Assembly: GCA_020249265.1 (NCBI GenBank) | Contig: JADCGA010000044.1 | Location: 1 to 45,385, forward strand | Direction of reading: 5' to 3' | DNA length: 45,385 bases | From: Roseomonas sp. | GTDB taxonomy: Bacteria; Pseudomonadota; Alphaproteobacteria; Acetobacterales; Acetobacteraceae | Part shown: in pieces, positions 30,746-39,688 of the stretch | Numbering within the stretch: the first letter of the stretch is position 1 | How the letters are laid out: the number at the start of each line of letters is the position of its first letter | Translations under genes and position numbers: made by a program | Notes under the pieces: model-generated | Told to the model about the DNA's origin: nothing | The model's input: the letters and a program-made list of their open reading frames with translations, nothing else | Databases searched by the model: none

Positions 30746-31786
30746 ATGAATAGACGCACCATGCTGACGGCACCTTTGGCAGTGCCGCTTTTGGTCGCAA
30801 GCGCGGCCCAGGCGCAGGCCGCGCTGGTGATGGAAGAATTCATGATCCCGTCGGGCGATGCCGGGATTGAGCTTTTCCTGCGCAATAAGCGCCCGGAAAG
30901 CCTGAACGCCTTCACGCCCGCGCGCACGGTGATCTTCGTGCATGGCGCGACCTATCCTGCGCATACGGCGTTTGACCTGCCGCTCGGTGGCTTGTCCTGG
31001 ATGGATTACATCGCAGGCCAGGGTTTTGATGTTTGGTGCCTGGATATTCGCGGCTATGGCCGCAGCACGCGCCCACCGGAAATGAGCCAACCGCCTGAAG
31101 CCAATCCGCCCATCGTGCGCGGTGAGACAGCAGTGAAGGATATCGGCACCGCGGCGGCCTTCATTCGCGAAAGACGCAATGTCGCGAAGCTGGTGCATAT
31201 CGGCTGGTCCTGGGGCAGCACGCTGATGGGCCGCTTCGCTGCCGATAACCCCGCGCTGGTGGAACGCCTGGTGCTATTCGCCCCACCCTGGCTGCGCGAT
31301 GGGCCAAGCCTTGCGGGTGGCGCCGCAACTGCGACGCTGGGTGCTTATCGCACCGTGACGCAGGCGCAGGCGCGGGAACGCTGGATGACGGGTGTGCCGG
31401 AAGGCAAGCGCGCCGGCCTTATTCCGCCCGGCTGGTTTGAACATTGGGCGGGCGTGACCTGGGCGACCGACCCGGAAGGCATGCGCCGCAACCCGCAAAC
31501 GCTCCGCGCGCCCAATGGCGTGCTGCTGGATAGCCGCGAATATGCCCAGGCTGGCCGGCCCTATTGGGACCCCGCCAAGGTCACGGCGCCAACGCTGCTG
31601 GTGGTCGCGGAATGGGACCGCGATACCCCGCCGGCCATGGCCATGGCGATTTTCCCGCTGCTCACGAATAGCCCCGGCAAGCGTCTGGTGGTGCTGGGGG
31701 AAGGCACGCATACGATTGTGATGGAACGCAATCGCGGCGCGCTGTTCCAGGCGGTGCAGGGCTTCCTGGCGGAAGTCTCTGCCTGA
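30746..31786 (+). CDS. Exported alpha/beta hydrolase
   Basis: A 346-residue hydrolase with a signal peptide that begins MNRRTML, a twin-arginine-like start, and ends AQAQAA. Nucleophile elbow GWSWGS (Ser155), oxyanion FVHGATYP, acid likely in AEWDRDTPP and His in GEGTHTIV. It belongs to the large hydrolase family with lysophospholipase/peptidase-like members; the substrate cannot be read. It stands between unrelated genes and has its own short upstream region. Confidence 0.85.
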   Translation: MNRRTMLTAPLAVPLLVASAAQAQAALVMEEFMIPSGDAGIELFLRNKRPESLNAFTPARTVIFVHGATYPAHTAFDLPLGGLSWMDYIAGQGFDVWCLDIRGYGRSTRPPEMSQPPEANPPIVRGETAVKDIGTAAAFIRERRNVAKLVHIGWSWGSTLMGRFAADNPALVERLVLFAPPWLRDGPSLAGGAATATLGAYRTVTQAQARERWMTGVPEGKRAGLIPPGWFEHWAGVTWATDPEGMRRNPQTLRAPNGVLLDSREYAQAGRPYWDPAKVTAPTLLVVAEWDRDTPPAMAMAIFPLLTNSPGKRLVVLGEGTHTIVMERNRGALFQAVQGFLAEVSA

Positions 31787-35841: not shown

Positions 35842-36405
35842 ATGACAACCGATATCGCACCACTCCTCGCCCCTGATGGGGATTTTTATGTCTTTGCCTA
35901 TGGATCGCTGATCTGGCGCCCAGGCTTTGACCATGCCGCGCGTCACCCGGCATTGCTGCGTGGCTTTCACCGGCGCTTTTGCCTATGGAGCCACCGTTAT
36001 CGTGGCACCCCAGAACGCCCAGGGTTGGTCTTGGGGCTTGATCGCGGCGGCGCCTGCCGGGGCGCGGTGTTTCGTGTGCCGGGCCGTGCGGCGGTTGAAA
36101 CGCTGGCCTATCTGGATGCGCGCGAATTACCCGATGGCGGAGAGGTTGTTTATCGCCGCCAGCTTTTGCCGCTGACGCTGTTGGATAGTGGGGAACGTGT
36201 TCCCGCCATTGCCTATGTCGCGAACCGGGCGTGTCGGCTTTATTGCGGCAAGCAGCCGGCGGAAATTCTGGCACGCGCGATTGATACCGGACATGGGCAG
36301 ATGGGGTCGAACCGCGATTATTTGTTCAATACGCTGGATCATTTGGGCGAGATGGGCGTGCGGGATCGCGGGCTGGAAGCCATCGCGGCATTGGTTGGGC
36401 GGTGA
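35842..36405 (+). CDS. Gamma-glutamylcyclotransferase, ChaC-like
   Basis: A 187-residue protein with the substrate loop YGSLIWRP (residues 20-27) and a catalytic Glu95 in YLDARE. WSHRYRGTPERPGLVLGLD and the C-terminal GSNRDYLFNTLDHLGEMGV fit ChaC proteins, which cleave glutathione to 5-oxoproline and Cys-Gly. ATG 35842 is chosen over an upstream TTG. It lies 66 bp before the Lin0512 pair, same strand; no evidence they act together. Confidence 0.88.
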   Translation: MTTDIAPLLAPDGDFYVFAYGSLIWRPGFDHAARHPALLRGFHRRFCLWSHRYRGTPERPGLVLGLDRGGACRGAVFRVPGRAAVETLAYLDARELPDGGEVVYRRQLLPLTLLDSGERVPAIAYVANRACRLYCGKQPAEILARAIDTGHGQMGSNRDYLFNTLDHLGEMGVRDRGLEAIAALVGR

Positions 36406-36471: not shown

Positions 36472-36810
36472 ATGGCCCTGCAACGCATGGTGCTTGAAAT
36501 CGGCATGGGTACCGATATTCGCGGCGCGGATTACACCAAGGCCGCGGTGCGCGCGCTTCGCGATGCGCTTTGGCACAACTCGCTCACCATCGGTGCCGCA
36601 GTTGGCCAGGATGTTGACGCCATGCAGGTTGAAGTGCTGATCGGCGTGCCGAAGCCAGATTTGGTGGATAAGGACCAGGTGCTGGCCATTCTGCCGCATG
36701 GCAGCGGCACCGTGACGCTGGTGGAAGGCGGCCTCGAAATCCCGAATGATGAGGGCACCAATAGCACCGTGATCGCCAATTGCTGCGCCATTGTGCGGCT
36801 GGATGTGTGA
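36472..36810 (+). CDS. Lin0512 family protein, variant copy
   Basis: A 112-residue protein of the Lin0512 family (function unknown). The family's N-terminal signature GxGxDxHG appears here as GMGTDIRG, with Arg for the otherwise conserved His. Other shared blocks: ADYTKAAVRALRDAL, MQVEVLIGVPKPDLVD, GGLEIPNDEG. Start 36472 has AGGACAGGA upstream. It is followed 12 bp later by a second member that keeps the His. Position with DUF35 and thiolase genes suggests a role with acyl-CoA chemistry (inference). Confidence 0.85.
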   Translation: MALQRMVLEIGMGTDIRGADYTKAAVRALRDALWHNSLTIGAAVGQDVDAMQVEVLIGVPKPDLVDKDQVLAILPHGSGTVTLVEGGLEIPNDEGTNSTVIANCCAIVRLDV

Positions 36811-36822
36811 GGGAGACCGACA

Positions 36823-37164
36823 ATGGCCTTGAAGCGCATCATCCTTGAAATGGGCAGCGGCAATGATTTGCACGGCGGGGATTACACCAAGGCCGCTTTG
36901 CGCGCGGTGCAGGATGCCTTGCATCATTCCTCGCTCGCTTTCGTTCGCACGCTGGGGCTTGATATCAAGACCATGCAGGTGGAAGTGACCATCGGCGTGC
37001 AGCAGCCAGACAAGGTGGATATCGAAGCGGTGCGCAAATCCCTGCCTTACGGCGTGGTGACCGCGCGCGCGGTGAAGGGTGGCTTGGATGTTCCGGAAGA
37101 AGGCGCGCATGACAAGGCAGTGATCGCCTCGGCCGCCATTGCCGTGCGTTTCGATTTGCCCTGA
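36823..37164 (+). CDS. Lin0512 family protein, canonical copy
   Basis: A 113-residue paralogue of the preceding gene. The signature GSGNDLHG matches GxGxDxHG exactly. GGDYTKAALRAVQDALHHSS, MQVEVTIGVQQPDKVD, GGLDVPEEGAHD are shared with the first copy. The two copies are about half identical by eye and probably arose by tandem duplication; they may form a heteromer in which only one has the conserved His. The DUF35 gene begins 30 bp after. Confidence 0.87.
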   Translation: MALKRIILEMGSGNDLHGGDYTKAALRAVQDALHHSSLAFVRTLGLDIKTMQVEVTIGVQQPDKVDIEAVRKSLPYGVVTARAVKGGLDVPEEGAHDKAVIASAAIAVRFDLP

Positions 37165-37194
37165 GGCATCCTACAACACATGCGGCAGGATAAG

Positions 37195-37575
37195 ATGGAA
37201 AACGCCAAAAAATCGCCCCTCGGCATTTACAATGAGCATTTGCGTCGGGGCGAACTTGCCTATCAATTCAGCCCGAGCGTCGGCAAACCCGTATTCTACC
37301 CGCGCATCGTCTGCCCCTATACGGGCAGCGAAGATCTGGAATGGCGAATCTCCAAGGGGCTTGGCACGGTGCATGCGACCACCGTCGTGCATCCCGCGCA
37401 GGGTGAGGCTTACAATGTCTGCCTGGTGGATATGGATGAGGGTTATCGGCTGATGAGCCGGGTTGAGGATATTGACCCGATGGCGGTGAAAATCGGCATG
37501 CGCGTGACCTTCCGCACGCATCATCAGGGTGATGATGAAGCGCCCATTCCCGTCTTCACGGCGTTGGGGGGCTAG
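37195..37575 (+). CDS. DUF35 OB-fold protein, thiolase partner
   Basis: A 126-residue protein with the DUF35 OB-fold: GTVHATTVVHPAQGEAYNV, LVDMDEGYRLMSRVED, IGMRVTFRTH. The N-terminal zinc ribbon of typical members (two CxxC) is missing; only one Cys (VCPYTG) is left, so zinc is probably not bound. ATG 37195 has AGGA upstream; an ATG at 37180 is possible. The thiolase gene starts 5 nt after its stop. In characterised pairs DUF35 helps bring acyl-CoA to a thiolase-fold enzyme. Confidence 0.85.
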   Translation: MENAKKSPLGIYNEHLRRGELAYQFSPSVGKPVFYPRIVCPYTGSEDLEWRISKGLGTVHATTVVHPAQGEAYNVCLVDMDEGYRLMSRVEDIDPMAVKIGMRVTFRTHHQGDDEAPIPVFTALGG

Positions 37576-37579
37576 GGCG

Positions 37580-38734
37580 ATGGGCAGCATGAAGCGCGGC
37601 AGTGTTGCCATTGTGGGCGCGGCGGAATCGGATATCGGCAGCGTTGCGGCTGATATGTCGGTGATTGATCTGATGGCGCAGGGGACAGTGCGGGCACTGG
37701 CGGATGCGGGGCTGACGCTTGCCGATGTGGATGGGCTTTTTTGTGCCACCACCCAGGCGCGGACCTCCGCCATGTCCTTGGCGGAATATCTGAAAAAGCC
37801 GGATGCTTATGTGGATTCCACCATTGTCGGTGGATCATCCTTTGAAATTCACGTGGCGCATGCGCAGGCTGCGATTGAAGCGGGGCTTTGTTCCGTGGCG
37901 GTTGTTGCTTATGGCAGCACGCAGCGATCAGCGGGGCGGAAAAATGCGTCGCCCCGCGAATTCAACCCTTATGGGACGCCCTTCAAACCCTTCATGCCTT
38001 CCACCGCCTATGCCATGGCGGCCAACCGGCACATGCATGAATACGGCACAACGCGGGAACAATTGGCGGAAGTGGCGGTGGCGGCGCGACGCTGGGCGCA
38101 GCTCAATCCCGTTGCATTCGATCAAAGGCCGCTGGATATCGCGGGCGTGCTGGGGGCGAAGATGGTGTCCTACCCCTTCACCGTGCGCGATTGCTGCCTG
38201 GTGACGGATGGCGGGGGCGCGATTGTGCTGACTTCTGCCGCGCGGGCCGAGGCGCTGAAGAAGCCGCCGGTCTATGTGCTGGGGACCGGGACCAGCATCA
38301 CCCATGCGAGCATTTCAAATATGCCGGATTTGACGCGGACGGGGGCGATTGCGTCCGGCGCGCGCGCCTATCACGCGGCGGGACTTGGGCCCAAGGATAT
38401 GGATATGGCGCATCTGTATGATGCGTTTACCATCAATACCATCCTGTTCCTGGAAGATCTGGGCTTTTGCAAAAAGGGCGAAGGCGGCGCGTTTGTTGCC
38501 AATGGGCGCATCGCGCCGGGGGGTGCCTTGCCGGTGAATACCAATGGCGGGGGTTTGTCTTACTGCCATCCGGGCATGTACGGGCTTTACTTGCTGATTG
38601 AAGCGGTGCGGCAAATCCGCGGCGAATGCGGCGCGCGGCAAGTGCAAAAGCACGATACCGCCATTGTGCATGGCAATGGCGGCGTGCTGTCGGCGCAGAG
38701 CACTGTTATTCTGGGCGGGGCGGGGGCGGTTTAG
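37580..38734 (+). CDS. Thiolase-fold protein without the usual catalytic Cys (lipid-transfer/aldolase-like)
   Basis: A 384-residue protein of the SCP-x/lipid-transfer thiolase group. In place of the nucleophilic Cys the N-terminal motif reads VGGSSFEIHVAHA (Ser86-Ser87). HLYDAFTIN (Tyr280) and GGGLSYCHPGMYG (His330) are retained. Cys-less thiolase-fold proteins that pair with DUF35, such as the Ltp2-ChsH2 type, act as retro-aldol lyases on acyl-CoA rather than as thiolases. Aldolase action is therefore the best inference; substrate unknown. Start 37580 has GGGG upstream; ATG 37589 is an alternative. Confidence 0.83.
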   Translation: MGSMKRGSVAIVGAAESDIGSVAADMSVIDLMAQGTVRALADAGLTLADVDGLFCATTQARTSAMSLAEYLKKPDAYVDSTIVGGSSFEIHVAHAQAAIEAGLCSVAVVAYGSTQRSAGRKNASPREFNPYGTPFKPFMPSTAYAMAANRHMHEYGTTREQLAEVAVAARRWAQLNPVAFDQRPLDIAGVLGAKMVSYPFTVRDCCLVTDGGGAIVLTSAARAEALKKPPVYVLGTGTSITHASISNMPDLTRTGAIASGARAYHAAGLGPKDMDMAHLYDAFTINTILFLEDLGFCKKGEGGAFVANGRIAPGGALPVNTNGGGLSYCHPGMYGLYLLIEAVRQIRGECGARQVQKHDTAIVHGNGGVLSAQSTVILGGAGAV

Positions 38735-38869: not shown

Positions 38870-39148
38870 ATGTTTCGGAGTAAGGAGAGCGCCTCCCTCG
38901 GCGTTTTGCTGGCGCAAGGTGCTGCCATTGTCTGGAGCCGCCACGCCACTGAGCGCGCGTATGAACGCGGTGTTTCGAAATTGGATTCGGAACGTGTGAT
39001 CAGGCGGGGCCGCGTCACCGGCCTTGATATGCAAGCGGACGGGCAAGAGCGTTGGCAGCTTGCCGGCCAGGATGAGGATGGTTTCGCCTTCACCGTCGTG
39101 ATCACCCCGATCGCGCCGGATGTCCTTGTTGTTACTGTGATCACATGA
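38870..39148 (+). CDS. DUF4258 protein, probable toxin
   Basis: A 92-residue basic protein. SRHATERAYERGVSKLDSER, then VIRRGRV and the C-terminal FAFTVVITPIAPDVLVVTVI fit DUF4258, a RelE/MqsR-like toxin group. It lies 15 bp before an HTH gene of the antitoxin type and has its own promoter-operator, the usual layout of a type II toxin-antitoxin pair with the toxin first. RNA cleavage is inferred from the family. Confidence 0.78.
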   Translation: MFRSKESASLGVLLAQGAAIVWSRHATERAYERGVSKLDSERVIRRGRVTGLDMQADGQERWQLAGQDEDGFAFTVVITPIAPDVLVVTVIT

Positions 39149-39163
39149 AAGGGAGAGAATGCC

Positions 39164-39688
39164 ATGCGGCGCGTATTGCCACGATATGAGGAAAGGGGCC
39201 TCGGCCTGCCCTATCCGGTCGTGCTCATCAACGCGGCCGAGGAACATTCTGACGCGGCCGGCAATGTGCTTGGCGTTTCGGTCCCTGATCTTGAAGGCCT
39301 GGCGGCTGCCGTTGCGGTCGCGCGCGCCTTGCTGCCGGTGGAACTGACCGGCAGTGAGGTGCGTTTCATGCGCAAGGTCATCGGCATGTCGGCCAAGGAT
39401 TTTGCTGAGGCGTTGAAGCTCGACCCCGCGTCTCTTTCCCGGTGGGAGAACAATAAGCAGACGCTGGGCGGCTGGGCAGAAAGCCAGGTCCGGCTGGCGA
39501 CCGTTGCCATTGTTGCGCAGCGCGTGCCAAGCCTGAAGCCGGATATGGAAAAGCTGTTTCGTATGGTGGCGCGCAAGCGAGAGGAAGGCGAAGCTTGGCC
39601 GCTATTCGAAATGCGCCTTGAACCGCATCACGTAACAGATACCCCGCGCGCTACGGGTGAAAGCTGGGCGGCGCTTCAGGCGGCCTGA
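39164..39688 (+). CDS. HTH antitoxin (MqsA-like) partner of the DUF4258 toxin
   Basis: A 174-residue protein. Residues about 60-110 hold an HTH of the MqsA/YgiT type: LTGSEVRFMRKVIGMSAKDF, ALKLDPASLSRWENNKQ. The N-terminal zinc-binding Cys motifs of MqsA are absent; instead YEERGLGLPYPVVLINAAEE precedes it, as in the non-zinc group found beside DUF4258. AGGGAGAG precedes the ATG. A C-terminal 60-residue extension ends with SWAALQAA. Expected to neutralise the toxin and repress the promoter at 38811. Confidence 0.8.
   Translation: MRRVLPRYEERGLGLPYPVVLINAAEEHSDAAGNVLGVSVPDLEGLAAAVAVARALLPVELTGSEVRFMRKVIGMSAKDFAEALKLDPASLSRWENNKQTLGGWAESQVRLATVAIVAQRVPSLKPDMEKLFRMVARKREEGEAWPLFEMRLEPHHVTDTPRATGESWAALQAA

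Follow-up and report, generated by a model that had tools for sequence, protein, structure and literature searches.

Four closely spaced genes on one strand of a Roseomonas sp. contig raise the question of whether two paralogues of the Lin0512 family, a DUF35 protein and a thiolase-fold protein constitute a single functional system. The window, i.e. the whole stretch of 45,385 nucleotides that was analysed, is contig C39 of a 3.96 Mb genome comprising 72 contigs. ORF coordinates confirmed the predicted gene order, common strand and gaps of 12, 30 and 4 bp, the 30 bp gap shrinking to 15 bp if an alternative ATG at 37180 is used. The family identities were likewise borne out by profile matches. 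Both paralogues, hereafter A and B, scored above threshold with PF09585 (106 and 120 bits against 23.4) and TIGR02058 (68.7 and 67.2 against 56.85), and the DUF35 and thiolase-fold proteins exceeded the cut-offs of PF01796 (27.1 bits) and NF004811 (421 bits), respectively, the latter protein also matching PF22691. Among the closest relatives, the ChaC gene preceding A is likewise conserved to the left of the pair; it is not thought to be part of the system.

Table 1. Genes of the locus and its left flank (positions within the window).
Feature	Position	Strand	Length and matches
ChaC gene	35845..36405	+	PF04752 130 bits; left flank of A-B
Lin0512 paralogue A	36472..36810	+	112 aa; PF09585/TIGR02058
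Lin0512 paralogue B	36823..37164	+	113 aa; PF09585/TIGR02058
DUF35 (ChsH2-type OB) protein, zinc ribbon incomplete	37195..37575	+	PF01796 49.6 bits
Thiolase-fold protein lacking both catalytic thiolase cysteines	37580..38734	+	NF004811 600 bits, PF22691

Conservation of the gene arrangement

To place the arrangement in context, we compared it with 80 Lin0512 loci, the best 80 of 545 confirmed in a scan of a genome collection. The DUF35-thiolase genes adjoined the Lin0512 pair in only two of these (L048 and L050), both being sister contigs of the window with 94–98% identity in these genes and both ending inside the thiolase gene; in three further loci (L064, L074 and L079) the contig ends too soon after B to judge. 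The operon idea thus fails the refuting condition originally set for it, co-conservation limited to close relatives: no Lin0512-DUF35-thiolase neighbourhood from distant taxa was found among the 80 loci, and we reject a conserved four-gene operon, the adjacency being confined to the genus of the window.

The closest relatives locate the boundary. The order chaC-A-B is kept in L047–L050 and L055, and in L047, L049 and L055 these genes share 89–92% DNA identity with the window, their homology stopping at window positions 37165–37167, the end of B, and being followed by three different right flanks. In L049, B is immediately followed by the genes for a DUF4258 and a helix-turn-helix (HTH) protein that in the window stand after the thiolase. 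The genome of L047 (G397) carries a 96% identical thiolase together with its DUF35 gene on another contig. More broadly, the two modules lay on different contigs in 27 of the 29 Acetobacteraceae genomes holding both. The two exceptions with both on one contig (G000 and G782) are the window itself and a genome of its genus, and in G782 the Lin0512/thiolase spacing fits the window arrangement (DUF35 not checked there). The locus is best read as two functional modules, an A/B pair and a DUF35-thiolase pair, which are neighbours in one genus only.

The Lin0512 A/B pair

A protein search for Lin0512 scored at least 7,999 candidates, every one a match. A search of the open literature, including the accessions of the family and its structure 3C8L, found no paper on this widespread family with a solved structure. 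Both A and B share the fold of PDB 3c8l. The nearest known systems further include the FtsZ C-terminal domain, IspF and RidA/YjgF, a group of chorismate-mutase-like α/β folds. Comparison with the RidA/YjgF fold gave Foldseek probabilities of up to 0.97 with a TM score of about 0.4, and this fold was absent from the 50 matches listed in further comparisons; membership of the RidA/YjgF family was rejected, with no PF01042 match at E ≤ 0.01.

The pair itself is strongly conserved. A and B are arranged in tandem in 78 of the 80 related loci, the exceptions being L062 and L100, and their stop and start codons overlap in loci of another family (f12). In L016 (1486–2184, minus strand) the two are naturally fused in frame through a short linker. 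A second A-B fusion of 193 aa (P0008) is probably chimeric. Among 103 distinct pairs, all A sequences formed one clade and all B sequences another (plus two singles), which points to one old duplication as the origin of A and B.

The two clades have diverged at a pair of positions that single-copy relatives keep together. Met12 and His17 occur jointly in 16 of 17 single-copy relatives. In the 103 pairs, A retains Met12 and never has His17, whereas B keeps His or Tyr at position 17 and has mostly lost Met12, with exceptions in 12 of the 103 pairs, where B retains Met12, eight of these carrying Met12 plus His17. Thus, in contrast to 3c8l and most other singles, in which Met12 and His17 reside on one chain, the two residues are here split over two diverged paralogues. 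Taken together, the tandem arrangement, the natural fusion and the complementary loss of Met12 and His17 lead us to read A and B as a probable heteromer with one site built from both chains. In such an assembly, A and B would fold alike and associate as an obligate heteromer, to whose site A would contribute Met12 and B His/Tyr17. The complementary residue loss offers a direct and inexpensive test of a shared A/B site, and a heteromeric Lin0512 enzyme, if confirmed, would be new for the family, judging by the literature searched. Two B-type genes without an A neighbour (L003/L062 and L100) carry Met12, as single-copy homologues do.

No conserved neighbour of the pair emerged: excluding the pair itself and antisense ORFs, the commonest families within 3 kb were present in just 10 of 81 loci. 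A zinc-type/quinone oxidoreductase gene follows B in L067, L074, L091, L109, L116, L121 and L124, most of which are titled Betaproteobacteria or Burkholderiales, with three unlikely titles of metagenome-assembled genomes (two Bordetella, one Chitinophaga). A relative of the L067 oxidoreductase (59% identical) precedes the single Lin0512 gene in L258, and a similar gene is present in L260; the Pfam check of these genes covered L074, L121 and L260. As a general partner of the pair the oxidoreductase was rejected, being limited to seven loci. Single Lin0512 genes were found in unrelated surroundings in one Listeria innocua and three Azospirillum records, the four examined of 14 matched plasmid-collection records. 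In the Listeria innocua record (L129, 7539–8363) a helix-turn-helix gene shares the strand of the single Lin0512 gene and ends six bases ahead of it.

The DUF35-thiolase module

In the second module, the gene immediately preceding the thiolase encodes DUF35 in 41 of the 42 thiolase loci examined (not found in L224). The other neighbours of the thiolase vary, including enoyl-CoA hydratase, CoA-transferase III and others; L153 has genes for RidA, an alpha/beta hydrolase and an ABM-domain protein nearby, and L154 resembles it in this respect (the Pfam check of thiolase-neighbour proteins covered ten proteins). The DUF35 protein matches the OB domain, and its zinc-ribbon half (zf-ChsH2) remains below the cut-off (17.1 versus 23.2); its nearest solved chains are 6htj, 9myr_B and 6ok1_B. 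One genome (G689) holds two close-thiolase copies, 87 and 86% identical to that of the window, on two contigs.

The thiolase-fold protein carries GGSSF (84–88) as its nucleophile loop and HGNGG (364–368) as its C-terminal motif. Across 42 close and 14 sister sequences, positions 84–86 are occupied by G, S or A only and position 364 by H, Q or N only. As both catalytic cysteines are absent, we reject a canonical thiolase. The earlier description of the protein as lacking cysteine holds for these two catalytic residues and not for the protein as a whole, which contains seven other cysteines.

Among solved structures it scores highest, by a wide margin, against 4u4e (378 bits), an uncharacterised protein, with further scores of 189 bits for 9myr_A (Sal), 149 bits for 6ok1_A (Ltp2) and, close to the latter, 143 bits for the benzoylsuccinyl-CoA thiolase BbsB, which was matched over residues 141–372 only. 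The archaeal thiolase (6esq, 107 bits) and PhlC (5m3k, 59–62 bits) are more distant. According to PMC12329534, BbsAB (7pxp), the archaeal acetoacetyl-CoA thiolase/DUF35 (6esq) and PhlABC (5m3k) are DUF35-thiolase complexes, and in Ltp2 and Sal, each with a DUF35 partner, a Tyr serves as the base of retro-aldol cleavage.

The module resembles the steroid side-chain aldolases Ltp2-ChsH2 (6ok1) and Sal-Shy (9myr) in its thiolase fold and DUF35 partner, in the Tyr of the YDxF motif and in a nucleophile loop without Cys. Tyr280 of the window protein (YDAF, 280–283) aligns with Ltp2 Tyr294 and is present in all 42 close and all 14 sister sequences. The motif itself differs, however, reading YDAF here against YDHF or YDCY in Ltp2 and Sal. 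Further differences concern the second catalytic residue: His330, kept in 42/42 close sequences, takes the place of the acid Tyr344 of Ltp2, and Ala282, likewise invariant in the 42, that of Cys304 of Sal, so that the second catalytic residue of neither enzyme is matched. Next to His330, and likely on an active-site loop, Cys329 is specific to the close group (41/42 close thiolases, 0/14 sister sequences), and a cysteine may thus still play a role. Given the differences at positions 282 and 330, the protein is not simply another Ltp2 or Sal. The DUF35 zinc ribbon is also incomplete, unlike in Ltp2-ChsH2 and Sal-Shy. We do not claim a steroid side-chain function.

By analogy with Ltp2 and Sal, the shared Tyr base and DUF35 partner lead us to expect that the protein acts on an acyl-CoA as a C–C lyase and does not carry out thiolysis. 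The DUF35-thiolase would accordingly make or break a C–C bond of its acyl-CoA in the manner of these aldolases and not by Claisen thiolysis, with Tyr280 as the putative base, His330 or the neighbouring Cys329 as the putative acid, and the DUF35 protein shaping the cleft.

Co-occurrence of the two modules and its explanation

We then analysed whether genomes holding one module also hold the other. A close thiolase was defined by at least 65% identity, a cut chosen once the gap from 65% down to 59% was apparent. In a sample of 100 Acetobacteraceae genomes, Lin0512 was present in 22 and the close thiolase in 11 (next best, 59%). Omitting the window, Lin0512 was found in 10/10 thiolase genomes versus 11/89 others (p = 2e-8). 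The sister thiolase (56–59%) exhibited no such association (2/9, p = 0.61). Since these Fisher tests take no account of relatedness among genomes, simulation on a tree is the better guide. On a single-gene (RecJ) tree of 96 of the 100 genomes (omitting G026, which has Lin0512, as well as G039, G050 and G098), both traits were patchy, requiring 9 and 12 parsimony changes, and none of 7,021 simulated patterns, conditioned on 9–13 positives, fell wholly within the Lin0512 genomes, the best overlap being 73%.

The same picture was obtained for 299 genomes of this one family, a sample overlapping with the first and sharing all 22 of its Lin0512 genomes. Lin0512 occurred in 29/30 close-thiolase genomes versus 44/269 others (73/299 overall; p = 3e-19), and in 27/28 thiolase genomes after removal of the genus of the window. 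The sole exception, G727, is 89% complete; in draft genomes such as those sampled, absence may reflect missing data. The 30 thiolase genomes represent 12 genera, each of which also belongs to the 25 genera, out of 102 sampled, in which Lin0512 occurs. For the 299-genome sample, as for the Burkholderiales and phylum samples described below, the thiolase was scored among the best six to nine first-look candidates per genome.

The association extends to a second proteobacterial class. In 200 genomes of Burkholderiales, the order of G414 (titled Burkholderiales bacterium), two Lin0512 genes were present in six, and all six had a thiolase of 63–68% identity (p = 6e-8); removing G414, known beforehand to hold both, left 5/5 (p = 8e-7). 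Three genomes with a single Lin0512 gene lacked the thiolase. Overall, the thiolase occurred in 15 of the 200, nine of these without Lin0512, so it would be too strong to claim that the thiolase strictly depends on Lin0512. In the thiolase tree, for which many of the Lin0512 rows were picked for having Lin0512, nine of the 11 loci that come from genomes without Lin0512 fell outside both clades of Lin0512 genomes, with G543 as sister of one such clade and G492 and G536 nested inside. A phylum-wide sample contained no thiolase above 60% identity except that of the window and is thus uninformative on the close group; its 10 pair genomes, chosen for Lin0512 and kept out of the statistics, gave no thiolase match at E ≤ 1e-100.

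The proposed functional link between the Lin0512 proteins and the DUF35-thiolase is thus rather supported, the unlinked co-occurrence being strong in Acetobacteraceae and Burkholderiales. Genomes with the pair but no thiolase are nevertheless common. On balance, we lean towards a reading in which an A/B heteromer and an Ltp2/Sal-like DUF35-thiolase are two modules that probably belong to one pathway in these two groups. That pathway would probably be one of small acids or acyl-CoAs, in which the Lin0512 heteromer acts on a metabolite either ahead of the C–C step or following it; elsewhere, the Lin0512 pair would work without this thiolase. The data show directly the gene anatomy, the tandem conservation, one fusion, the complementary residue loss, the missing thiolase cysteines, the separability of the modules and their co-occurrence; the heteromer with its shared site, the lyase chemistry, the common pathway and the order of its steps are inferred. 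More tentatively, A and B may be a subfunctionalised heteromeric enzyme and the DUF35-thiolase a lyase lacking the catalytic cysteines, kept together by selection across two proteobacterial classes in an undescribed acyl-CoA pathway. The unlinked co-occurrence is a concrete pathway lead, one that would escape methods based on gene neighbourhoods, since the genes hardly ever adjoin each other in the sampled genomes, and the genus of the window provides a natural case of both modules side by side.

Alternatively, both modules could be accessory genes of large, versatile bacteria, gained and lost together through a shared niche and devoid of any biochemical link. Lin0512-positive genomes are indeed larger (mean 5.5 versus 3.8 Mb), and genome size is a partial confounder of the co-occurrence, the association weakening to p = 0.04 (6/6 versus 8/16) among genomes of at least 5 Mb. 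The close thiolase is moreover absent from 44/73 Lin0512-positive Acetobacteraceae, 9/15 thiolase-positive Burkholderiales lack Lin0512, and the modules are unlinked in nearly all genomes with both. However, the association persists among genomes of at least 4 Mb (8/8 versus 10/40, p = 1e-4) as well as against the tree simulation, and the sister thiolase (53–59%) in the same 299-genome sample shows none (6/25, p = 0.60), so that we regard shared niche as a somewhat unlikely explanation.

Less likely still, a DUF35-thiolase cassette could have landed beside an unrelated pair by chance. The chaC-A-B genes of L049, running directly into the DUF4258/HTH genes without a cassette, and the separate contig of the nearly identical thiolase and DUF35 genes in G397 are in line with this reading, yet it leaves the unlinked co-occurrence in two classes unexplained. 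Finally, a dedicated four-gene system as originally proposed, with the Lin0512 proteins either built into the DUF35-thiolase complex as subunits or feeding it directly, is improbable: the tight same-strand spacing, its repetition in L048 and L050, the compatible spacing in G782 (DUF35 not checked) and the co-occurrence of the modules are consistent with it, but adjacency is confined to one genus, homology breaks off right after the stop codon of B in L047, L049 and L055, which have three different right flanks, and Lin0512 is widespread without this thiolase.

Elsewhere in the window, the alpha/beta hydrolase encoded some 5 kb ahead of the pair (30761–31786) clusters with the hydrolases located near DUF35-thiolase in L153 and L154. 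Between the thiolase and threonine synthase, the region 38870–39688 encodes a candidate toxin-antitoxin pair: the first protein is DUF4258-like (21.9 bits, short of the Pfam cut-off), and the second, starting 15 bp on, is the HTH protein, which bears a weak likeness to MqsA-type antitoxins (TIGR03830, below cut-off).
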